Source: Bacteroidales bacterium (GTDB lineage Bacteria > Bacteroidota > Bacteroidia > Bacteroidales > JAFGXI01). From it: DNA of 35,954 bases. Below, in pieces: positions 3,212-27,050 of the stretch. Made by a program: the position numbers and the translations under genes. The stretch's first letter is position 1. Each line of letters begins with the position of its first letter. The stretch lies in the NCBI GenBank assembly GCA_030627705.1, contig DAOVTE010000004.1:1-35954 (forward strand). The letters are read 5' to 3'. The notes under the pieces were generated by a model that did not search any database, was not told the origin of the DNA, and saw only the letters and a list, made by a program, of their open reading frames with translations.

Positions 3212-4768
3212 TTATTTGTTAGGACTTAACGTTATAACAGGAATTAACATTTCTTCCATACTTACACCCCCGTGTTGGAATGTGTTTTTGTAGTACTTTG
3301 CATAATGATTATAGTTATTAGGGTAGGTAAAGAAATCATTATTTGTAGAAAAAATATACGATGAACTAATATTAGTTTTAGGTAAACCTCCGTCTTCTGG
3401 ATTTATTATTTCAAATACCTCTTTTTGCTTATAGCTTAAGTTTCGTCCTTGTTTATAACGTAGATTTGTAGTTGTATCTCTGTCGCCAACTACTTTTATT
3501 GGATTATTTACTTTTATAGTTCCGTGATCTGTTGTTATAATAACTTTCACATCTTGATTAGATAATTCTTTAAATAAATCTAGTAGGGTAGAGTGGTTAA
3601 ACCACGATAAAGTTAAAGAACGATAAGCAGCTTCATCTTCGGCAAGTTCTTTAATCATCTGCATTTCAGTTCTTGAATGCGAAAGAATATCAACAAAATT
3701 ATATACTACAACAGATAAATCGTTTTTAAGAATATTTTTTAAATTATTATTTATTTTCTTACCAAATGCATTATTTAGAACTTTACCATAATACGTCGAA
3801 TAATTTTTATTTAGTCTTTTGATATGAGTCTTAAGAAGATCTTCTTCGTTTAGGTTTTTTCCTCCCTCTTGGTCGTCGTCTAACCAAAGATGTGGATAAT
3901 GCTTTTTTATATCAGAAGGCATTAATCCTGCAAACATTGCATTTCTAGAATATTGTGTTGCAGTAGGTAATATTGAACTCATTATTGCTTCATCTTCAAC
4001 ATAGAAATATTTTCTTATTTCAGGTTGTAGAATTTTCCATTGATCAAATCTTAAATTATCAATTAACACAATAAATACTTTGTTTCCTTTGTCTATTAAT
4101 GGAAAAACTTTATCGGCAAGAACATTCTGTGATGTTAATGGCTTATTAGTATTGTTTTTATCAAACCAAGAAAAATAATCACGCTTTATAAACTTAGCAA
4201 AGGCAATGTTTGCTTCTGTTTTTTGCATTTTAAGTATTTCTGAGATTGTATTGTCTTTTAACTTCTCAATCTCTAATTCCCAGTAAATAAGCTTTTTATG
4301 TATTTCTATCCAATCGTCTAGAGTTATGCAATCATTAATTTCTATTGCAATTTTAGAAAAAACAGATTGATAGTCTGATGTAGTTTTTTCAGATATTAAT
4401 CTACTTTTATCTATAGTCTTTTTTATTGCTAGTAAAATCTGATTTGGATTAACTGGTTTTATTAAATAATCAGTAATTTTTCCTCCAATAGCTTCTTCCA
4501 TAATATCTTCTTCTTCGCTTTTTGTAATCATTATTACAGGAAGAATAGGAAAATGTTGTTTTATTTCTTTTAGCACTTCTAGCCCAGAAATACCTGGCAT
4601 ATTTTCGTCTAAAAATACTAAATCATATTGATTATTATTTATTAAATCCAATGCATCACTACCATTATTAGTAGTATCAACATCAAATCCTTTTTCCTTT
4701 AGGAATAGAATATGTGGTAATAAAATATCAATTTCGTCGTCTACCCAAAGTATTAGAGGTTTACTCAT
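3212..4768 (-). CDS. porX: PorX: response-regulator receiver fused to PglZ-type alkaline-phosphatase-fold domain (T9SS regulator)
   Basis: N-terminal receiver 'ILWVDDEIDILLPHILFLKEKGFDV...LVFLDENMPGISGLEVLKEIK...DYLIKPVNPNQI', then PglZ-like 'VFIVLIDNLRFDQWKIL', 'LPTATQYSRNAMFAGLMP', 'VKVIITTDHGTIKV', 'FQHGGVSMEEMLIPVI'. Confidence 0.93.
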   Translation of the reverse strand: MSKPLILWVDDEIDILLPHILFLKEKGFDVDTTNNGSDALDLINNNQYDLVFLDENMPGISGLEVLKEIKQHFPILPVIMITKSEEEDIMEEAIGGKITDYLIKPVNPNQILLAIKKTIDKSRLISEKTTSDYQSVFSKIAIEINDCITLDDWIEIHKKLIYWELEIEKLKDNTISEILKMQKTEANIAFAKFIKRDYFSWFDKNNTNKPLTSQNVLADKVFPLIDKGNKVFIVLIDNLRFDQWKILQPEIRKYFYVEDEAIMSSILPTATQYSRNAMFAGLMPSDIKKHYPHLWLDDDQEGGKNLNEEDLLKTHIKRLNKNYSTYYGKVLNNAFGKKINNNLKNILKNDLSVVVYNFVDILSHSRTEMQMIKELAEDEAAYRSLTLSWFNHSTLLDLFKELSNQDVKVIITTDHGTIKVNNPIKVVGDRDTTTNLRYKQGRNLSYKQKEVFEIINPEDGGLPKTNISSSYIFSTNNDFFTYPNNYNHYAKYYKNTFQHGGVSMEEMLIPVITLSPNK

Positions 4769-16587: not shown

Positions 16588-17646
16588 ATGAAACCAGATA
16601 ATAACAGATTATTAGAAAAATTAGCATCAGCGTCCGAAGCTCTGGAATTAATAGAAAAAAAATTTAAATTTCTTTTTGATTATAGTAGTGATGAGATTTT
16701 TGTTAGCGATTTAAAAGGAAACTTCTTAGAAGTTAATCAAGTTGCTTGCGATAGCCTTGGTTATACCAAGAAAGAAATGCTTAGCATGAATTTTAAAAGC
16801 ATTAAAACTCCAAAGTATAGAGAATTTGTGCTAATAAATATAAAGAAAATATTAAAAAAAAAACGATATACATACGAATCTAAACACATTACTAAAGACG
16901 GCAAAATCTTTTCGGTAGAAATGAAAAGTAGAATTATAGATTATTACGGAGAAACTGCAATAATAAGTGTTGCCCGTGATATTTCGGAAAGAAAAGAACT
17001 AGAAAATAAAATTCTGCATACAATAATCGTAACCGAAGAAAAAGAACGAAAACGTTTTGCAAATGATTTACACGATGGATTAAGTCCAATACTTTCAGCA
17101 ATAAAATTATATACTGATTTACTTAAAAAAGATAGTTTTAAACAAACTAGTAAAGAAGAAATATTAAGTAATATTGAGGAACTTGTAGAATTATCAATAT
17201 CTAGTGCAAAAGAAATTTCGAATAACATTACTCCTAGTATCTTACACGACTTTGGATTATCAAAAGCAATAGAAAGGTTTTGCGTTTTTATAGACAATAC
17301 AAAATCAATAAATATTACTACCAAAACTAACGAATATAAATTCTCGGAAAGAAGTATAGAAGAAAGTATTCTATATCAAACCACAAAAGAGCTTATTAAT
17401 AATACATTAAAACACGCATCAGCAAAAAATATAAGATTAGAACTTAAGAGTAGCGATAATCTAATTATTATGCATTATAGCGACGATGGAATTGGTCTAA
17501 ATTTAAAAGACCACCTTAAAAATAGTTCAGGTTTAGGCTTAAATAATATAATTAATAAAATTAAATCGATAAAAGGAAACTGCGATTTTTACAACGGAAA
17601 AAATGCAGGAATGAAAGTTCTAATATCAGTAAAACTTAATAAATAA
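16588..17646 (+). CDS. PAS-domain sensor histidine kinase, HisKA_3/NarX-type
   Basis: PAS 'LFDYSSDEIFVSDLKGNFLEVNQVACDSLGYTKKEML'; 'ERKRFANDLHDGLSPILSAIKLY' H-box; HATPase 'NNTLKHASAKNIRLELKSSDNLIIMHYSDDGIGLN...SGLGLNNIINKIKSIKG'. No TM segments seen (probably cytosolic). Confidence 0.93.
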   Translation: MKPDNNRLLEKLASASEALELIEKKFKFLFDYSSDEIFVSDLKGNFLEVNQVACDSLGYTKKEMLSMNFKSIKTPKYREFVLINIKKILKKKRYTYESKHITKDGKIFSVEMKSRIIDYYGETAIISVARDISERKELENKILHTIIVTEEKERKRFANDLHDGLSPILSAIKLYTDLLKKDSFKQTSKEEILSNIEELVELSISSAKEISNNITPSILHDFGLSKAIERFCVFIDNTKSINITTKTNEYKFSERSIEESILYQTTKELINNTLKHASAKNIRLELKSSDNLIIMHYSDDGIGLNLKDHLKNSSGLGLNNIINKIKSIKGNCDFYNGKNAGMKVLISVKLNK

Positions 17647-17647
17647 T

Positions 17648-18277
17648 ATGGAAATAATAACTGTAATTATTGCCGACGATCACGAAATATTTAGAAAAGG
17701 ATTAAGAACTGTTCTAAACGAAATTCCTTTTATTAAAGTTGTGGCAGAGTCTTCTAACGGATATGAATTAATTAAAGAAATGAAATCAAATCCTGCCGAG
17801 ATAATATTAATGGATATTAAGATGCCCATAATTGATGGCATAGAAGCCACAAAAAAAGTAATTAAAAAATATCCAGGAACACGAGTAATTGCATTAACAA
17901 TGCACGAAGAAATAAGTTATTTTAATAAAATGATAGATGCAGGCGCAACTGGGTTTCTTCTAAAAAAAACAAATAGAGCACAACTAGAAAAAGCAATAAT
18001 TGCAATATATAACGACGAAACTTTTTTCTCAGAAGAATTTATAATTAGTAAAAATAAAACTACACCAAAAAAAGCAAGTATAATTATTTCCGAAAGAGAA
18101 AAACAAGTTCTAGAACTTATTTGCAAAGGATATTCTAATGTCGAAATTGCTATAGAGCTAGGTATTAGCAAAAGAACTGTCGATGGCCACCGCTCTAGAT
18201 TATTCGATAAAACAGGAGCAAAGAACTCTCCAAATCTTGTGCTATTTGCAATTAAGAATAACTTAATAATTGCGTAA
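17648..18277 (+). CDS. NarL/LuxR-family response regulator
   Basis: Receiver 'VIIADDHEIFRKGLRTVL...IILMDIKMPIIDGIEATKKV...GATGFLLKKT' and LuxR HTH 'ISEREKQVLELICKGYSNVEIAIELGISKRTVDGHRSRLFDKTGAKNSPNLVLFAI'; starts 1 bp after the kinase gene. Confidence 0.96.
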   Translation: MEIITVIIADDHEIFRKGLRTVLNEIPFIKVVAESSNGYELIKEMKSNPAEIILMDIKMPIIDGIEATKKVIKKYPGTRVIALTMHEEISYFNKMIDAGATGFLLKKTNRAQLEKAIIAIYNDETFFSEEFIISKNKTTPKKASIIISEREKQVLELICKGYSNVEIAIELGISKRTVDGHRSRLFDKTGAKNSPNLVLFAIKNNLIIA

Positions 18278-18666: not shown

Positions 18667-19158
18667 ATGAAAACAGCAAAAAGAATTTTAATTGTAGACG
18701 ACGATACTGATATCATAAACGTAGTTAGAACAATTTTAGAAAATGAAAATTACGAAGTTTTCGAAGCAAACGGAAAAGAAGAAGCTCTTAAACTTTTAGA
18801 AACTCTTAAACCTAACCTTGCAATTCTAGATGTAATGATGAATACTCAATACGAAGGATTCGAGTTAGCAGAAGAAATTAAAACGAACCACAAAGAAATA
18901 CCTGTTGTAATGCAAACTTCTATAGAGGTGTTTAATTCTCCAGATGCCGATGCTATGGGATACGCACGTGCTTATAGAAACCAAATGAAAGACAAAAATA
19001 TGGAAGTGCTACTTGTTCAAAATACAATCTCTTGCAATGCAGGAATAGATTACCGAAACGAAGAAGGAAAAATAATTTGGTTACCAATAGATGGATTTAT
19101 TCGCAAACCTGTAAAAGCAAAAAACTTATTAGAAACGATTAATAAAATTGTAAGATAA
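18667..19158 (+). CDS. Receiver-only response regulator with long insertion between the conserved T/S and the KP motif
   Basis: 'RILIVDDDTDIINVVRTIL', phospho-acceptor in 'LAILDVMM', 'IPVVMQTS' ... 'GFIRKPV'. T84 to K147 is 63 residues versus ~22 in CheY-like proteins. No output domain. Confidence 0.88.
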   Translation: MKTAKRILIVDDDTDIINVVRTILENENYEVFEANGKEEALKLLETLKPNLAILDVMMNTQYEGFELAEEIKTNHKEIPVVMQTSIEVFNSPDADAMGYARAYRNQMKDKNMEVLLVQNTISCNAGIDYRNEEGKIIWLPIDGFIRKPVKAKNLLETINKIVR

Positions 19159-19290: not shown

Positions 19291-19755
19291 ATGGAAAAAG
19301 TAAAAGAAATATTACAAAACTATTCAAGTGAAGGAAGAGAAAATTTGATTCCTATTTTACAAGATATACAAGATAATAATGGGTGGTTATCAGAAGGTTC
19401 TATAATCGAAGTTGGCAACCATTTAAATTTACCAGTAAGTAAAATTTATGGCGTTGCAACTTTTTACAATCAGTTTAGTTTTCAGCCAAAAGGAAAATAT
19501 CACGTTCAGGTTTGTAGAGGTACAGCCTGCCACGTTTTAGGCTCAGCTTCAGTATTAAAAGAATTAGAAAGTACATTAAAAATTAAACCCGACCAAACTT
19601 CAAAAGATGGACTTTTTAGTTTAGAGATTGTTGCCTGTATAGGTGCGTGTGGATTAGCTCCTGTAATATCAATAAATGGAGAATTTCACGCAAAAATTAC
19701 CTCAGATTCTATTAAACAAATAATCGATAATTATAAACAACAACAAAACAATTAA
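19291..19755 (+). CDS. hydC: [FeFe]-hydrogenase NuoE-like subunit (HydC/HndA; thioredoxin-like [2Fe-2S])
   Basis: 'LIPILQDIQDNNGWLSEGSIIEVGNHLNLPVSKIYGVATFYNQFSF', 'VCRGTACHVLGSASVLKELE', 'VACIGACGLAPVISING'. Confidence 0.93.
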   Translation: MEKVKEILQNYSSEGRENLIPILQDIQDNNGWLSEGSIIEVGNHLNLPVSKIYGVATFYNQFSFQPKGKYHVQVCRGTACHVLGSASVLKELESTLKIKPDQTSKDGLFSLEIVACIGACGLAPVISINGEFHAKITSDSIKQIIDNYKQQQNN

Positions 19756-19757
19756 TT

Positions 19758-21695
19758 ATGTCAGAATTTATAAAATATAAAGAATTTATTATAGATAATG
19801 TTTTAATTAATTCTAAAAATAATAACGAAGAATATAAACACAAAATAAATATTCTAAAAAGAGAAATAGTATACAAACCAATTATTTTTATAGGAACAGG
19901 AACTTGCGGTTTAGGTGCAGGTGCAGGAAAAACATTAAATGTAGTAAAGCAATATATAGAAGAAAATAAAATTGATGCCCAAATAATAGAAACCGGCTGT
20001 ATAGGATTATGTTCTGCCGAACCATTAATGGATATTCAATTACCAAATAAGAACAGAATATCATTCGATAATGTTACCCAAGACAAAGTTGTAGATATAC
20101 TAAATAATATATTTAAATATAATAATAAGCAAGAGGCTTTATGTCAGTTTCCGTCAGAAAATAACGAAAGTTGGGAAGATGTAATTCCTATAAATGAGAT
20201 ACCATTTTTTAAACCTCAAAAACGAATTGTTCTTAAAAATTGTGGAATTATTAATCCTATAAGCATAGAAGAATATATTGCAAATGGAGGATACAAAAAT
20301 TACATTAAAGTTATAAATAATGATAAGCCATTAGAGATTTGTGATATAATAGAAAAAAGTGGTTTACGAGGTAGAGGTGGCGGAGGTTTTTCTACGGGAA
20401 AAAAATGGAAATTTGCACTAAATACACCCAGTAATCAACGATATTTAATTTGCAATGCAGACGAAGGTGATCCTGGTGCATTTATGGATAGAGCTGTAAT
20501 AGAGGGCGATCCGCACAAGCTTATAGAAGGAATGGCAATTTCTGCCTTTGCAATTGGAGCAACAAAATCATATGTATATATCCGTGCAGAATATCCTTTA
20601 GCTATAGAAAGACTTAAAATTGCAATGCAACAAGCTAAAGATTATGGTCTGGTAGGAGAAAATATTTTTGGTTCAGGAATAAATTTTGAAATAAAAATAA
20701 AAAAAGGAGCAGGCGCATTTGTTTGCGGCGAAGAAACAGCCCTTATTCACAGCATAGAAGGTAAAAGAGGAATGCCACGCCCTCGTCCTCCATTCCCTGC
20801 AACAAGCGGATTATTTGGCAAACCTACAATTATCAATAATGTAGAAAGCCTTTCTAATATTGCCGCAATTATAGAAAATGGCAAGGATTGGTTTGCATCA
20901 ATAGGAACAGAAAATAGTAAAGGAACAAAAGTATTTGCCTTATCTGGAAAAATCTCGCTTACAGGATTAGTAGAAATCCCAATGGGAACAACAGTAAGAG
21001 AGGTGCTTTTTGATATTGCAGGTGGCATTCCAAATAATAAAAAATTTAAATCTGTACAAATTGGAGGGCCTTCGGGAGGATGTATTACCGAAGAAAATCT
21101 AGACATACCAATAGATTACGATTCGCTTCTAGAAGTTGGTGCAATGATGGGTTCTGGCGGTTTAGTTGTAATGGACGAAGATACTTGTATGGTAGATGTC
21201 GCAAAATTCTTTATGGATTTTATCCAACGAGAAAGCTGCGGTAAATGTATTCCTTGCAGAGAAGGAACTCGCAGAATGCTAGAAATATTAGAAGACATTA
21301 CAAAAAAACCAGCAAACGGGGATTCTCACGATGCCTTAAAAAGATTTAAAGGAATAACTCAACTGGAGAAACTAGGAAAAGTAATAGGCGAAACATCTTT
21401 ATGTGGATTAGGTCAAACCGCACCAAACCCTGTTTTAAGTACGTTAAAATGGTTTCGTAACGAATACGAAGAACATATCTTCGAGCGTAAATGTTCGGCA
21501 GGAGTTTGTACTGATTTAAGAGTTTTTACAATAGATGTAGATAAATGTACAGGATGTACAATTTGTGCAAGAAAATGTCCGACAGATGCAATAATTGGAG
21601 CTAAGAAAACTCCTCATTTTATTGTAGACGACAAATGTATATCGTGTGGAACTTGTGACGAAGTGTGTAAATTCGATGCAATTTTAATAAACTAA
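19758..21695 (+). CDS. hydB: [FeFe]-hydrogenase NuoF-like flavoprotein subunit (HydB/HndC) with C-terminal 2x[4Fe-4S] ferredoxin domain
   Basis: 'GLRGRGGGGFSTGKKWKFA', 'ICNADEGDPGAFMDRAVIEGDPHKLIEGM', 'GAGAFVCGEETALIHSIEGKRGMPRPRPPFPA', 'ESCGKCIPCREGTRRML', C-terminal 'CTGCTICARKCPTDAI...CISCGTCDEVCKFDAI'. Confidence 0.96.
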   Translation: MSEFIKYKEFIIDNVLINSKNNNEEYKHKINILKREIVYKPIIFIGTGTCGLGAGAGKTLNVVKQYIEENKIDAQIIETGCIGLCSAEPLMDIQLPNKNRISFDNVTQDKVVDILNNIFKYNNKQEALCQFPSENNESWEDVIPINEIPFFKPQKRIVLKNCGIINPISIEEYIANGGYKNYIKVINNDKPLEICDIIEKSGLRGRGGGGFSTGKKWKFALNTPSNQRYLICNADEGDPGAFMDRAVIEGDPHKLIEGMAISAFAIGATKSYVYIRAEYPLAIERLKIAMQQAKDYGLVGENIFGSGINFEIKIKKGAGAFVCGEETALIHSIEGKRGMPRPRPPFPATSGLFGKPTIINNVESLSNIAAIIENGKDWFASIGTENSKGTKVFALSGKISLTGLVEIPMGTTVREVLFDIAGGIPNNKKFKSVQIGGPSGGCITEENLDIPIDYDSLLEVGAMMGSGGLVVMDEDTCMVDVAKFFMDFIQRESCGKCIPCREGTRRMLEILEDITKKPANGDSHDALKRFKGITQLEKLGKVIGETSLCGLGQTAPNPVLSTLKWFRNEYEEHIFERKCSAGVCTDLRVFTIDVDKCTGCTICARKCPTDAIIGAKKTPHFIVDDKCISCGTCDEVCKFDAILIN

Positions 21696-21744: not shown

Positions 21745-23463
21745 ATGAAAATATCAATAAATAATATAATTCACGAGGCAGAAAAACAAGAAACAATACT
21801 AGATATCTTGAACAGAAACGGTATTAAGGTTCCAACTCTATGCCATATAAAAGATATGTTTCCATCTGGAGCTTGCCGTATGTGTTTAGTCGAAGATACA
21901 ATATCAGGTAAATTAATTACCTCGTGTTCTTCTGTAGCTACAGAGAATATGAAAATACAAACACACTCGCCAAGAGTAACTGAAGCACGAAAAACAATTG
22001 TAGAATTATTATTGTCTAATCACCCAGACGACTGTTTATATTGCGTAAGAAATAAAAATTGTGAGCTACAGAACCTTTCAGAAGAACTTTGTGTTACCGA
22101 AAGAAGAATTAGAGGCAATAAAAATTCACTGTCAATAGATAGAGCAAGTTCTAGTATTGTTCGCGATCAAGAAAAATGTATTTTATGTGGTAGATGCGTT
22201 CGAGTTTGCGAAGAAGTAATTGGAGTTTCTTGCATAGATTTTATTAATAGAGGTAGCAAATCTATAGTTGGCACAGCTTTTAATAAAGGATTAAATGTTT
22301 CTAGTTGTGTAAATTGTGGACAATGTATAATGGTTTGTCCGACAGGTGCATTAACCGAGAAAAATCATTTTTCCGAAATAAAAATAGCATTACAAGATCC
22401 AAGTAAAACAGTTGTAATACAATATGCTCCATCTATATCTGTTTCGCTTGCCGAAGAATTTAATATGAAACCAGGCAAAGATATTAATGGAAATATTAAT
22501 GCAGCATTACGAAAATTAGGTTTCGATTTTGTTTTCGATACAACTTTTGGTGCAGACTTAACAATAATGGAAGAGTCATCGGAACTTATTCAACGTATTA
22601 CAAACAAAGAAACTTTGCCAATGATTACAAGTTGTTGTCCAGGTTGGGTTAAATACGCCGAAGAATTTTATCCGGAAATGATAAAACATATTTCTTCTTG
22701 CAAATCGCCTCAACAAATGACAGGCGCAATGATAAAAAGTTACTTTGCAGAAAAAGAAAATCTAAAACCTAAAGATATTTATTCTGTTTCTATAATGCCT
22801 TGTACAGCAAAAAAATTCGAAGGACAAAGAGAAGAAATGACTCAAAAAGGAATAAGCGATGTAGATGCAATTCTTACAACCAGAGAGTTTGTAAAGTTTA
22901 TTAATATGTTCGGAATAGATTTAGAAAAACTACAACCAGAACTTACCGATTCCCCTTTAGGAACAAGAACATCAGCAGGCAAAATATTTGGAACAACAGG
23001 TGGTGTTGCCGAAGCAGCATTGCGTACAGCCTACTTTAAGCTTACAGGTAAAGAGTTAATGGAATTTAAAATTAATGATGTTCGTGGATTAGATAACCGA
23101 AAAGAAACTAAAATAAAGATTGGTGATTTAGAATTGGGTGTTGCAGTTGTAAACGGATTAGGAAACGCAAAAAAATTACTAGAAGAAATAAAAGCAGGCA
23201 GAAAAGATATACATTTTATAGAAGTAATGGCTTGCCCTGGTGGATGCGTAGGCGGTGGTGGTCAGCCAATAAATATGGATACAGAGGCTATAAAAATTAG
23301 AGCAAAATCGCTTTATAATATCGACGATAATGCATCTATAAGAGTTTCGCATAAAAATCCAGATGTAGTTGCTTTGTACACCGAGTTTTTAGGCGAACCA
23401 TTAAGTCATAAATCTCATAAATTATTGCACACATCTTACAATATGAGAAAAGTTATTTTATAG
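21745..23463 (+). CDS. hydA: [FeFe]-hydrogenase catalytic subunit (HydA/HndD), group A3-like
   Basis: N-terminal [2Fe-2S] 'GIKVPTLCHIKDMFPSGACRMCLVE'; His-Cys cluster region 'HPDDCLYCVRNKNCELQ'; 2x[4Fe-4S]; complete H-cluster motifs L1 'TSCCPGW', L2 'MPCTAKKFE', L3 'VMACPGGCVGGGGQP'; small-subunit tail 'LYTEFLGEPLSHKSHKLLHTSY'. Confidence 0.97.
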   Translation: MKISINNIIHEAEKQETILDILNRNGIKVPTLCHIKDMFPSGACRMCLVEDTISGKLITSCSSVATENMKIQTHSPRVTEARKTIVELLLSNHPDDCLYCVRNKNCELQNLSEELCVTERRIRGNKNSLSIDRASSSIVRDQEKCILCGRCVRVCEEVIGVSCIDFINRGSKSIVGTAFNKGLNVSSCVNCGQCIMVCPTGALTEKNHFSEIKIALQDPSKTVVIQYAPSISVSLAEEFNMKPGKDINGNINAALRKLGFDFVFDTTFGADLTIMEESSELIQRITNKETLPMITSCCPGWVKYAEEFYPEMIKHISSCKSPQQMTGAMIKSYFAEKENLKPKDIYSVSIMPCTAKKFEGQREEMTQKGISDVDAILTTREFVKFINMFGIDLEKLQPELTDSPLGTRTSAGKIFGTTGGVAEAALRTAYFKLTGKELMEFKINDVRGLDNRKETKIKIGDLELGVAVVNGLGNAKKLLEEIKAGRKDIHFIEVMACPGGCVGGGGQPINMDTEAIKIRAKSLYNIDDNASIRVSHKNPDVVALYTEFLGEPLSHKSHKLLHTSYNMRKVIL

Positions 23464-23525: not shown

Positions 23526-25511
23526 ATGCCTAAATTTTCGAGCGAAAACCCTCTTGTATATACTATAAAAAATTTGTGTAAGGTTTGCTATACCTGCGTT
23601 AGAGAATGTCCTGTAAAGGCAATAAAAATAGACAATGGTCAGGCAGAAGTTATACAAGAAAGGTGTATTGCTTGCGGAAACTGCATACAAGTTTGTAGTC
23701 AAGGTGCTAAAGTTTTTTTTAATTCTACCGATAATGTTTTTGATATAATTAAGTCGGAAGAAAAAACCATTGCTTGTATTGCTCCAAGTTTCCCTGCAGA
23801 ATTTAACGAAATAGATAATTACAAGCAATTAGTTGGAATGATGAGGGAAATTGGTTTCGATTATGTAACCGAAGTTTCGTTCGGAGCCGATTTAGTAGCA
23901 AGAGAATATAAACATATTTTTGATAATAATAAATCAACACCAATTATTACATCGGATTGCCCTGCTATAGTTTATTATATAGAGCATTATCATCCGGAAA
24001 TTGCAAATTCGTTAGCTCCGATATTATCTCCAGCAATGGCTATGGCAAAGGTTGTAAGAAAAAAATATGGAGCAAACACAAAAGTAATTTTTATTGGACC
24101 TTGTGTAGCAAAAAAAGCAGAGTCAGATTATTTCGATGAGGTAATAACCTTTACAGAACTAAAACAAATGTTTGTATCGCAGAATATAAATCACGCAAAT
24201 GTTAAAGAATCGCAGTTCGATGGACCACACTCAGGAAAAGGAGCAATTTTTCCTGTAAATCACGGATTATTAAAAAGCATAAATAAAACCGAAGGTTTCG
24301 AAGCAGGACAAGTTATTACAGCAGAGGGTAAAAAGAAATTTAAAGAAGCTGTTAAAGAATTTAAGCAAGGAGCTTTAAAAACACAGCATTTAGAATTACT
24401 AAGTTGCGATGGTTGTATTCAGGGTCCAGGTATGACAGATAAAGGAAATTTATACGCAAAACGTAAAAATATTTTTATGTATGTTAAATCTAAATTAGAA
24501 ACATTAGATGAAGAAACATGGCAAAAAGATATGCAGTTTTTTAGCGATATAGATTTATCTAGAAATTTCGAAATTATAGATAGAAGGTTAATAAAACCCG
24601 ACGAAAAACAAATTGCTGCGCTTTTAATTAAAATGGGAAAAACTAGCCCTAATGATTTATTAAATTGCGGAACTTGTGGTTACGATACTTGCAACGAGCA
24701 CGCAATTGCTGTGCTTCAAGGTCTTGCTGAACAAGAAATGTGTTTGCCATTTACAATAGAGGAATTGCATAAATCTATTAAGGATTTAAGTGTCTCGAAT
24801 AAAATTTTGGCAGATACTCGCCAAGCTTTAAAACAATCGGAGAAGCTCGCAAGTATGGGACAGGTTTCTGCAGGTATTGCTCACGAATTAAATAATCCGT
24901 TGGGAATTATTACCTTATATAGCAGTGCTTTAAAAGACGACTTAGATGTAAAAAGTGAGGTTTATCAAGACATTAAAATTATTGACGAACAAGCGGAAAG
25001 ATGTAAAAACATAGTTGGTGGATTGCTAAATTTTGCACGAAAAAATAAAGTTCAACTTTCCGATTCAAATATTACAAAACTTATAGAACATAGCTTCGAT
25101 TCTATTCTTAAACCTAAAAATATTACAATCAATTTTATAAATAATATAGAAAATAATATAGTGAAATTAGATTACGACCAAATGATGCAAGTAATAACTA
25201 ATTTAGAGAAAAATGCAATAGAAGCTATGCCAAACGGAGGAAGATTGCTTGTAGAATTATCAGAAACAATCAAAAATGTAGAGATAAAAATTTCTGATAA
25301 TGGAACAGGAATCTCACAAGAAAATTTAGAAAAAATATTCACTCCATTTTTTACAACCAAAATAGTAGGAAAAGGAACAGGTCTGGGCTTATCGCTAGTA
25401 TACGGCATAATTAAAATGCACAAAGCAAAAATTAATGTAAAGTCTAACGATAAACCAGAAAAAGGAGAAACAGGAACAACATTTTTAATTACAATACCAA
25501 AAGATTTATAA
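23526..25511 (+). CDS. Sensory [FeFe]-hydrogenase-like domain fused to [4Fe-4S] (Fe-S/PF04060-like) domain and a histidine kinase (HydS-like, group C1-like)
   Basis: N-terminal 2x[4Fe-4S] 'CKVCYTCVRECPVKAI...CIACGNCIQVCSQGA'; H-domain with altered motifs 'ITSDCPA', 'IGPCVAKKAE', 'LLSCDGCIQGPGM'; 'CGTCGYDTCNEHAIAVLQGLAEQEMC' (Cx2Cx4Cx16C); HisKA 'SAGIAHELNNPLGIITLYSSAL' and HATPase 'NLEKNAIEAMPNGG...DNGTGISQENLEKIFTPFFTTKIVGKGTGLGLSLVYGIIKMH'. Confidence 0.92.
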   Translation: MPKFSSENPLVYTIKNLCKVCYTCVRECPVKAIKIDNGQAEVIQERCIACGNCIQVCSQGAKVFFNSTDNVFDIIKSEEKTIACIAPSFPAEFNEIDNYKQLVGMMREIGFDYVTEVSFGADLVAREYKHIFDNNKSTPIITSDCPAIVYYIEHYHPEIANSLAPILSPAMAMAKVVRKKYGANTKVIFIGPCVAKKAESDYFDEVITFTELKQMFVSQNINHANVKESQFDGPHSGKGAIFPVNHGLLKSINKTEGFEAGQVITAEGKKKFKEAVKEFKQGALKTQHLELLSCDGCIQGPGMTDKGNLYAKRKNIFMYVKSKLETLDEETWQKDMQFFSDIDLSRNFEIIDRRLIKPDEKQIAALLIKMGKTSPNDLLNCGTCGYDTCNEHAIAVLQGLAEQEMCLPFTIEELHKSIKDLSVSNKILADTRQALKQSEKLASMGQVSAGIAHELNNPLGIITLYSSALKDDLDVKSEVYQDIKIIDEQAERCKNIVGGLLNFARKNKVQLSDSNITKLIEHSFDSILKPKNITINFINNIENNIVKLDYDQMMQVITNLEKNAIEAMPNGGRLLVELSETIKNVEIKISDNGTGISQENLEKIFTPFFTTKIVGKGTGLGLSLVYGIIKMHKAKINVKSNDKPEKGETGTTFLITIPKDL

Positions 25512-25522
25512 TACCTAGAAAT

Positions 25523-25918
25523 ATGGAAAACAAAGATATTACAATTTTAATTGCAGACGACGATTACGATTATCTAAACCAAATGGACTTTCATTTAAAA
25601 AAATTTGGATTTAAAACTATATTGGCAAATAGCCAAAAAGAATGTGAAGAAATTATTGAAACAACAAAGCCAAATTTGGCAATTTTCGATTTAATGATGG
25701 AAAACGACGATAGTGGTTTTATTTTATCATATAAATTAAAAAAGAAATATCCAGACGTTCCTGTAATTCTTGCAAGTGCAGTTTCATCGGTAACAGGATA
25801 CATATTCGAGCAAGAAAACACAGATGAACAAAACTGGATAAAAGCCGACAAGTTTCTAGAAAAAGGAATACGACCAGATCAATTACACAGAGAAATAAAT
25901 AAATTATTAGAATTGTAA
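25523..25918 (+). CDS. Receiver-only response regulator (degenerate KP motif)
   Basis: 'ITILIADDDYDYLNQMDFHL', 'LAIFDLMMENDDSGFILSYKLKKKYPDVPVILASAV', C-terminal 'FLEKGIRPDQLHREINKLLEL' instead of KP. Confidence 0.88.
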   Translation: MENKDITILIADDDYDYLNQMDFHLKKFGFKTILANSQKECEEIIETTKPNLAIFDLMMENDDSGFILSYKLKKKYPDVPVILASAVSSVTGYIFEQENTDEQNWIKADKFLEKGIRPDQLHREINKLLEL

Positions 25919-25928
25919 AACAAGTATT

Positions 25929-27050
25929 ATGGAAACTTTAACAATATTAACAGTAGACGACGAAATAGGAATAAGAACTGGTGTTAAAAGAGCATTAAGA
26001 AATTTTATAGTTAGTTTCCCTTTTCACGAAGATGATTTTAATTTCGAGATAATTGATGCCGCTTCAGGCGAAGAAGCTTTAGAAATAATTTACAGCAAGC
26101 ATATAGATATTATTTTGCTCGATAATATCTTGCCAGGGATAGAAGGCATTGAAGTTTTAGAGAAATTAAAACAAGATAATATTAACTCTGCAGTTATGAT
26201 GATAACCTCGCACGCATCTATAGACCTTGCTGTGAAAGCTACCGACAATGGTGCGTTTAATTTTATTCCTAAACCATTTACGCAATTAGAACTTAAATCT
26301 GCTATAGAAAATATCACTAAGCATTTATTAATAAAGAGAATTACGCACAAAATGAAAAATGAAGCTAAGCAGATTAGATTTCAGTTTTTATCGGTTTTAT
26401 CTCACGAATTAAAATCGCCAATTAATGCAATAGAGGGTTACTTGCAAATGATGAAAGAAGAGGAAGTTGGAAAAGATATCTCGGCATATAAAAATATGAT
26501 AGACCGCTCTATTGAAAGAATAAATGGGATGCGTGGGTTAATTATGGATATGCTAGATTTAACCAAAATAGAATCTGGAAAAAAGAACAGAGAACTAAAC
26601 AAAGTAAATATTATTGATATTGCTAAAATGGCTATAGACTCTATTATACCCATTGCTGTACAGAAAAATATAAATATAGAATCTAATTTTCCAGAAGAAT
26701 TAATCTCAAATGTAGACAGTACAGAAATTGAGATAATATTCAATAATTTATTATCAAATGCTGTAAAATATAATAAGGATAATGGTGAAGTAAACTTTAC
26801 AATTAAGGAAGAAAACAACAATATTAAAATCACAATTTCTGATACAGGTATTGGAATGAGTAAAGAGGATATTGCAAGATTATTTAAGGAGTTTACAAGG
26901 ATAAAAAACCGAAAAACGCAAAATATTCCTGGTAGCGGCTTAGGTCTTTCTATAATGAAAAAGTTGGTGGATTTAAATAATGGGAGTATAAAAGTAGAAT
27001 CCGAAATAGATAAAGGCTCTGTGTTTACAGTTTATTTACATATTGAATAA
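25929..27050 (+). CDS. Receiver-histidine kinase hybrid (REC-HisKA-HATPase_c)
   Basis: 'LTVDDEIGIRTGVKRAL...IILLDNILPGIEGIEVLEKLK...FNFIPKPFTQLE' then 'FLSVLSHELKSPINAIEGYLQMM' and 'ISDTGIGMSKEDIARLFKEFTRI...GSGLGLSIMKKLVDLNNGSIKVESEIDKGSVF'. Confidence 0.95.
   Translation: METLTILTVDDEIGIRTGVKRALRNFIVSFPFHEDDFNFEIIDAASGEEALEIIYSKHIDIILLDNILPGIEGIEVLEKLKQDNINSAVMMITSHASIDLAVKATDNGAFNFIPKPFTQLELKSAIENITKHLLIKRITHKMKNEAKQIRFQFLSVLSHELKSPINAIEGYLQMMKEEEVGKDISAYKNMIDRSIERINGMRGLIMDMLDLTKIESGKKNRELNKVNIIDIAKMAIDSIIPIAVQKNINIESNFPEELISNVDSTEIEIIFNNLLSNAVKYNKDNGEVNFTIKEENNNIKITISDTGIGMSKEDIARLFKEFTRIKNRKTQNIPGSGLGLSIMKKLVDLNNGSIKVESEIDKGSVFTVYLHIE

Follow-up and report, generated by a model that had tools for sequence, protein, structure and literature searches.

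What does a receiver without an output domain do directly in front of a hydrogenase, and where does the large segment ahead of its conserved lysine come from? Few signalling domains are as abundant as receivers, whose core is rarely changed; a receiver of this type is encoded in a Bacteroidales genome within the window considered here (the whole analysed stretch of 35,954 nucleotides, contig DAOVTE010000004.1). The genes around it, all on the forward strand, are the following.

16588–17646, +: PAS and NarX-type histidine kinase (Pfam), found upstream in some of the loci with long receivers
17648–18277, +: NarL/LuxR-type response regulator (Pfam, NCBIfam)
18667–19158, +: stand-alone receiver with internal duplication, 163 residues, without output domain (Pfam, AlphaFold2 model)
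19291–19755, +: hydC, thioredoxin-like 2Fe–2S subunit, directly downstream of the receiver (PF01257, E = 6.1e-52)
19758–21695, +: hydB, Nuo51-like flavin and FeS subunit (Pfam)
21745–23463, +: hydA, [FeFe] hydrogenase (above the NCBIfam group A6 cut-off, 812 versus 765 bits)
23526–25511, +: hydS-like sensor with ferredoxin, Fe_hyd_lg_C, FeS, HisKA and HATPase domains (Pfam)
25523–25918, +: RR2, short-form stand-alone receiver with a Ser-to-Lys spacing of 29, outside the long-form clade (Pfam, tree)
25929–27050, +: RR_HK, receiver–HisKA–HATPase protein (Pfam)

No terminators were found between the genes of the window, and promoter matches in it are at chance level. Elsewhere in the window (3212–4768, reverse strand) is a receiver fused to a longer C-terminal domain, whose product presumably resembles PorX of type IX secretion.

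The receiver and its insertion

As originally predicted, the open reading frame at 18667–19158 (+) encodes exactly a receiver-only protein of 163 residues. Response_reg (PF00072) covers residues 7–85 only (E = 1.3e-19; 70.8 bits against a gathering threshold of 30.2), and the absence of any other Pfam domain leaves the protein without an output domain. Its Response_reg residue set is complete (D11, D12, D55, T84 and K147), and with every catalytic residue retained a pseudo-receiver is ruled out. Membership of the NCBIfam DVU0259/DivK family (NF045717) was rejected at 47.5 bits against a curated cut-off of 160. By its adjacency to hydrogenase genes the protein belongs to the hydrogenase-linked receiver subfamily, as defined in this analysis. 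No further copy exists in its own genome, in which RR2 comes closest (36% across the receiver half).

Alignment confirms that the switch residue T84 and K147 are 63 residues apart, 41 more than in ordinary receivers; three ordinary receivers encoded in the window show a spacing of 22, and about 22 is usual across the canonical CheY-type β4–α4–β5 segment. An AlphaFold2 model built with 14 family sequences (mean pLDDT of 88, pTM of 0.85) has the (β–α)5 core fold (Foldseek probability of 1.00), and Foldseek matches it to ordinary receivers with TM-scores by target length of up to 0.84 among the matches listed. Between β4 (residues 80–84) and β5 (residues 143–146) the model places a strand (88–91), a helix (96–106) and three further strands (114–119, 125–130 and 136–141), with a pLDDT of at least 78 in every ten-residue block of this stretch. 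The extension is thus predicted to be an ordered α/β element inserted between β4, carrying the switch T84, and β5, carrying F144 and K147. The model of RR2, a short form, lacks an ordered α4 (residues 88–99 have pLDDT below 50); the long form is thus predicted to have order in a region where RR2 lacks it. No solved structure with the insertion was found, nor a Pfam or NCBIfam name for it.

The insertion, whose sequence string had been quoted correctly, recurs in 53 relatives with distinct cores, at a mean pairwise identity of 0.51–0.52 as compared with 0.50–0.66 for the α/β core. Recurrent, conserved like the core and predicted to be ordered, it exceeds what chance would give, and the possibility raised with the original prediction, that it is disordered and non-conserved, is not borne out. 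D55, F144 and K147 are the same in all 53 relatives, as are D11 and D12 in each of the 52 rows that extend to them, and position 84 holds Thr in 45 relatives and Ser in 8.

Origin of the insertion

The insertion is composed of two layers, a hairpin region common to shorter hydrogenase-linked receivers and an extra internal duplication of 34 residues. The corresponding segments of the gene, all on the forward strand, are listed here.

18826–18921, +: copy 1, comprising the end of β3, α3 and β4 (residues 54–85), its last residues being the switch T84–S85 (self-comparison, profiles)
18829–18831, +: codon of the phospho-acceptor Asp55 (invariant in 53 of 53 relatives)
18922–19023, +: copy 2 (residues 86–119), tandem duplicate of copy 1 (hhalign, modelled secondary structure)
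19024–19089, +: hairpin region (residues 120–141), with strands 125–130 and 136–141 (AlphaFold2 model, comparison)
19090–19155, +: β5, K147 and α5 (residues 142–163), with F144 and K147 invariant (model, conservation)

The hairpin region matches the TGxxF...W segment of the short receivers. Family sequence comparisons make it near certain that the remaining stretch of about 34 residues arose as a tandem duplicate of the β3–α3–β4 unit of the receiver itself. Self-comparison of the family alignment gives a single dominant diagonal, with the copies offset by 34 columns of the alignment (by 32 residues in the window protein, whose copy 1 is two residues shorter), and the duplicated units align as LDVMMTTQYEGFELAKEFTDNPELKGIPTLMQTS with IDVLTTTKPDVQAMAREFRNDPNYKELQVILVRD. 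The best ungapped score between the copies is 42.6, against a mean of 15 and a maximum of 29 in 2,000 trials with permuted columns (P of about 1e-6 and 2e-7), whereas other pairs of units inside the receiver reach P values of 0.004–0.95 as against 2e-7 for the copy pair. Aligned by hhalign, copy 2 matches copy 1 at E = 1.7e-7 when 14 sequences are used and at 1.8e-8 when the set is enlarged to 53. In the model, copy 2 contributes the helix 96–106 and the strand 114–119, and its E87 is aligned with D55. A weak profile match to CheY (4hnq, E of about 1) aligns the insertion to CheY α3–β4, consistent with the duplication.

The likeness to β3–α3–β4 could in principle reflect generic α/β composition in an unrelated captured segment, and in the window sequence alone the copies align with only 4 identities. 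Such a capture is nevertheless very improbable given the family-level E values above and the poor scores of the other unit pairs. Copy 2 also scores on average 43.5 with copy 1 of its own family, as compared with a mean of 19.6 and a maximum of 27.1 for the α3–β4 segments of other receivers. A profile of copy 2 only, run against unduplicated receivers and so independent of copy 1, matches the β3–α3–β4 unit of L110 (6e-9), L112 (9e-9), L111 (1e-8) and L115 (4e-6); RR2 and ordinary receivers give nothing below E = 0.03 with it.

These four short forms share a DVMM.T..EGFE/EGYE loop and a TG..F/L...W.PVDxF.EKP region, with the consensus DVMM.T.QEG.EMA...LTSVD..TG..F/L...W.PVDxF.EKP and a T-to-K spacing of 28. 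From their sequences they look like the unduplicated state, still extant in related genomes: 28 residues plus the added 34 make 62, and the spacings measured in long forms are 61–63. More distant short forms are L028, L030, L060 and RR2; short forms in general have no duplication and a T-to-K spacing of 24–29, in contrast to the 61–63 of long forms. Short receivers stand directly after hydCBA in L111, L112 and L115, and beside other hydrogenase genes in L028, L030 and L060.

Copy 2 itself looks catalytically dead: while 49 of 53 relatives have an acidic residue (31 Asp, 18 Glu) aligned with D55, the copy-2 equivalent of T84 has turned to Asp or Asn in 50 of them. In a tree computed without the insert columns, 51 of the 53 long forms fall on one branch (support of 88), and the divergent long forms L113 and L114 lie near this main branch without a resolved position; on this tree the duplication may have had one origin, or two.

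Linkage to the hydrogenase operon

Searching for the insertion beside [FeFe] hydrogenases, as had been suggested, places 47 of the 53 long receivers right before hydC, in the same orientation and with gaps of 9–345 bp. Full-length matches (E < 1e-25) occur in 39 genomes of an order-level scan of 295, and a search with the C-terminal half in 198 class-level genomes turned up one other genome, in which the receiver again stands directly before hydC. Beyond Bacteroidota the search consisted of a single contig scan with two narrow peptide patterns; it returned 15 loci, all from Bacteroidota, and a search of plasmids gave no match. In all 15 scan loci the receiver gene has hydC and hydB after it in the same orientation and, where the contig permits, hydA, hydS, RR2 and RR_HK in that order. 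An orthologue of HydS is present in 37 of the 39 genomes with a long form, as compared with 56 of the 256 others (Fisher P of 3e-19, a value inflated by the relatedness of the genomes and, like the other Fisher value below, indicative).

The linkage is strong but not absolute, as four of the 53 relatives have no hydrogenase in view; strict linkage is accordingly rejected, and the original prediction's concern about receivers with no hydrogenase link applies to this small minority, the other 49 being near hydrogenase genes. In L107 and L113 a histidine kinase gene follows the receiver (after 3 and 9 bp), in L109 (a 3.5-kb contig) a HATPase protein follows after 146 bp, and L114 has neither kinase nor hydrogenase next to it. 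Two further long receivers are near other hydrogenase genes. L125 has HydB/HydC-type genes and two Fe_hyd_lg_C-type proteins, one of them divergent with a SpoIIE-like neighbour. In L126 (5154–9215) the receiver is followed by HydS, after 64 bp, and RR_HK, without adjacent hydCBA; this cassette faces genes for a HydB-like protein and an NADH-ubiquinone-20-kDa-type subunit, and the facing operon is probably a bidirectional [NiFe] (Hox) hydrogenase set.

A NarL-type receiver lacking a DNA-binding domain is often encoded directly 5′ of the long receiver (for example L071, 2012–2434, and similar reading frames). In L023 (9431–10357), L079 (1486–2526) and L108 (7947–8918) the frame is open from an upstream NarL-type receiver into the long receiver, which could mean that two receivers are fused in tandem or that translation starts internally.

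An alternative control module

Genomes with the long receiver mostly have a single HydS (35 of 37 in the order-level scan); two or more HydS are found in 50 of the 56 HydS-bearing genomes without the receiver versus 2 of the 37 with it (P = 5e-17, among related genomes). The receiver and a second, divergent HydS behave as if they were alternative control modules. The second HydS occupies one common position, divergent from hydC, in seven loci (L127–L132 and L135), referred to here as class B. A SpoIIE-type protein follows the second HydS in six of these, and in six of the seven a Rex-like repressor follows RR_HK, L132 being incomplete on both sides, and the assignments resting on Pfam for the L127 proteins and on sequence likeness for the others.

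The two operon classes have similar hydS, RR2 and RR_HK genes, and each keeps RR2 between the other two. On the HydA and HydB trees a single branch (support of 99) separates the two classes by receiver presence; the class changes twice on the HydC tree, three times each on those of HydS and RR2, and once on that of RR_HK (support of 84). In an AU test a clean split on the HydS tree is not rejected either (p = 0.22), so that these trees are only suggestive of a receiver that travels with the hydrogenase and not with HydS. Among the class B loci, hydA of L130 (9196–10908) has altered H-cluster motifs (ATHCPSW, TTCTARK and TCKEGC); the others compared are canonical or near-canonical.

Proposed function

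The receiver is best explained as part of the control cassette of a Bacteroidota HydABC [FeFe] hydrogenase; the anatomy of the family is near certain. Phosphorylation of the receiver is likely. In receivers, phosphorylation of the aspartate moves the β4 threonine and the β5 aromatic residue. Here D55 would be phosphorylated by a neighbouring kinase, the candidates being RR_HK, the NarX-type protein and HydS with its hydrogenase domain. Because T84 and F144 bracket the extension in sequence, phosphorylation should re-pose it through this switch, and the re-posed extension would then bind or release a partner protein; lacking an output domain, the receiver would act by protein contact. The extra ordered surface probably grips a partner in hydrogen control, and the original view of the insertion as a candidate interaction surface is a reasonable one, since the insertion is predicted to be ordered, is conserved and is strongly linked to hydC–hydB–hydA. 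We tentatively favour a docking protein that belongs to the hydrogenase operon and is switched by phosphorylation, with HydCBA as its most likely partner. If HydCBA is the partner, hydrogenase activity or assembly would be adjusted directly, without DNA binding. Naming HydCBA is guesswork, to which gene order and the HydA and HydB trees lend some weight. A more specific proposal, that the receiver is a phospho-switched allosteric subunit of HydABC exerting post-translational two-component control, for which sister lineages would use a HydS2–SpoIIE–Rex module instead, is unlikely.

A kinase could be the partner instead, and is the chief alternative. The single-domain receiver FixT inhibits the kinase FixL (PMC7078487), and by analogy the long receiver might dock on HydS, RR_HK or the NarX-type kinase and inhibit or modulate it, the duplication serving as the kinase-binding face. 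The receivers of L126, L107, L113 and L109, which adjoin kinase genes without adjacent hydCBA, suggest a kinase as the constant partner, and the anticorrelation between the receiver and a second HydS points the same way. Loci without the receiver nevertheless keep similar HydS, RR2 and RR_HK, so the cassette kinases do not need it, and RR2, encoded between hydS and RR_HK, is already their obvious partner; feedback of this kind is somewhat unlikely. Less probable still is a phosphorelay intermediate or phosphate sink (Spo0F- or CheY1-like) between the kinases and the NarL-type regulator, with the extension setting specificity. A gene for a NarL-type receiver or regulator does lie just upstream in many long-form loci, and the frames of L023, L079 and L108 mentioned above run from one receiver into the other; against this, Pfam recognised no HPt gene among the regulatory genes of the window, and a sink does not need a conserved, ordered extension of 34 residues.

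A role for the cysteine of the ISCNAG loop has fared worst. A cysteine does sit in the insertion loop, and FixT binds an Fe–S cluster through a four-Cys motif (PMC7078487), but Cys123 is the sole cysteine of the protein and is found in 1 of 53 relatives, namely this one, the position being Gly in 46. Redox or Fe–S sensing through it has almost no chance of being correct, and as such a site the cysteine is effectively refuted at the family level.

In the docking protein that we favour, a β–α–β duplication made in place, with the catalytic site kept, would be a route to a new binding face without an output domain. The near-constant site before hydC and the near exclusivity with a second HydS make the route from HydS-type cassettes to the target hydrogenase testable; this route is at present only assumed (PMC10055695).

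Relation to known systems

The protein resembles CheY-like receivers (PF00072) in its core fold, in all catalytic residues and in the aromatic switch residue (here F144), and differs from them in that the canonical α4 segment is replaced, with the added residues lying between the switch threonine and the lysine. Receiver insertions as such are already known: in fungal Ssk1 and hybrid-kinase receivers, large loop insertions have been proposed to bind the target (PMC8510515). These lie in the α2–β3 or α3–β4 loops rather than between β4 and β5, and those of Ssk1 are rich in Pro and Ser and thought to be disordered (PMC8510515), whereas the present one is predicted to be ordered and contains a duplication.

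FixT, the single-domain Fe–S receiver of Caulobacter, is likewise stand-alone and acts by protein contact in a redox-controlled two-component system (PMC7078487), as is proposed for the long receiver; with one cysteine, the latter lacks the four-Cys cluster motif and shows no sign of a cluster. FixT was the nearest case found: no paper turned up on internally duplicated receivers or on such hydrogenase-linked stand-alone receivers in a search that left most subscription journals outside. Among the group C sensory [FeFe] hydrogenases, HydS is assumed to regulate a hydrogenase encoded in its operon (PMC10055695); the account of HydS given there mentions no such receiver. In the same account TmHydS has a PAS domain, whereas the HydS-like protein of the window carries a HisKA/HATPase kinase.

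The first H-cluster motif of HydS (23526–25511) reads TSDCPA or SSDCPA among the proteins compared, with Asp in place of the proton-transfer Cys in 11 of 12. According to PMC10055695, Ala is the commonest occupant of this position in sensory enzymes, and prototypical enzymes tolerate Asp alone as a replacement of the cysteine.
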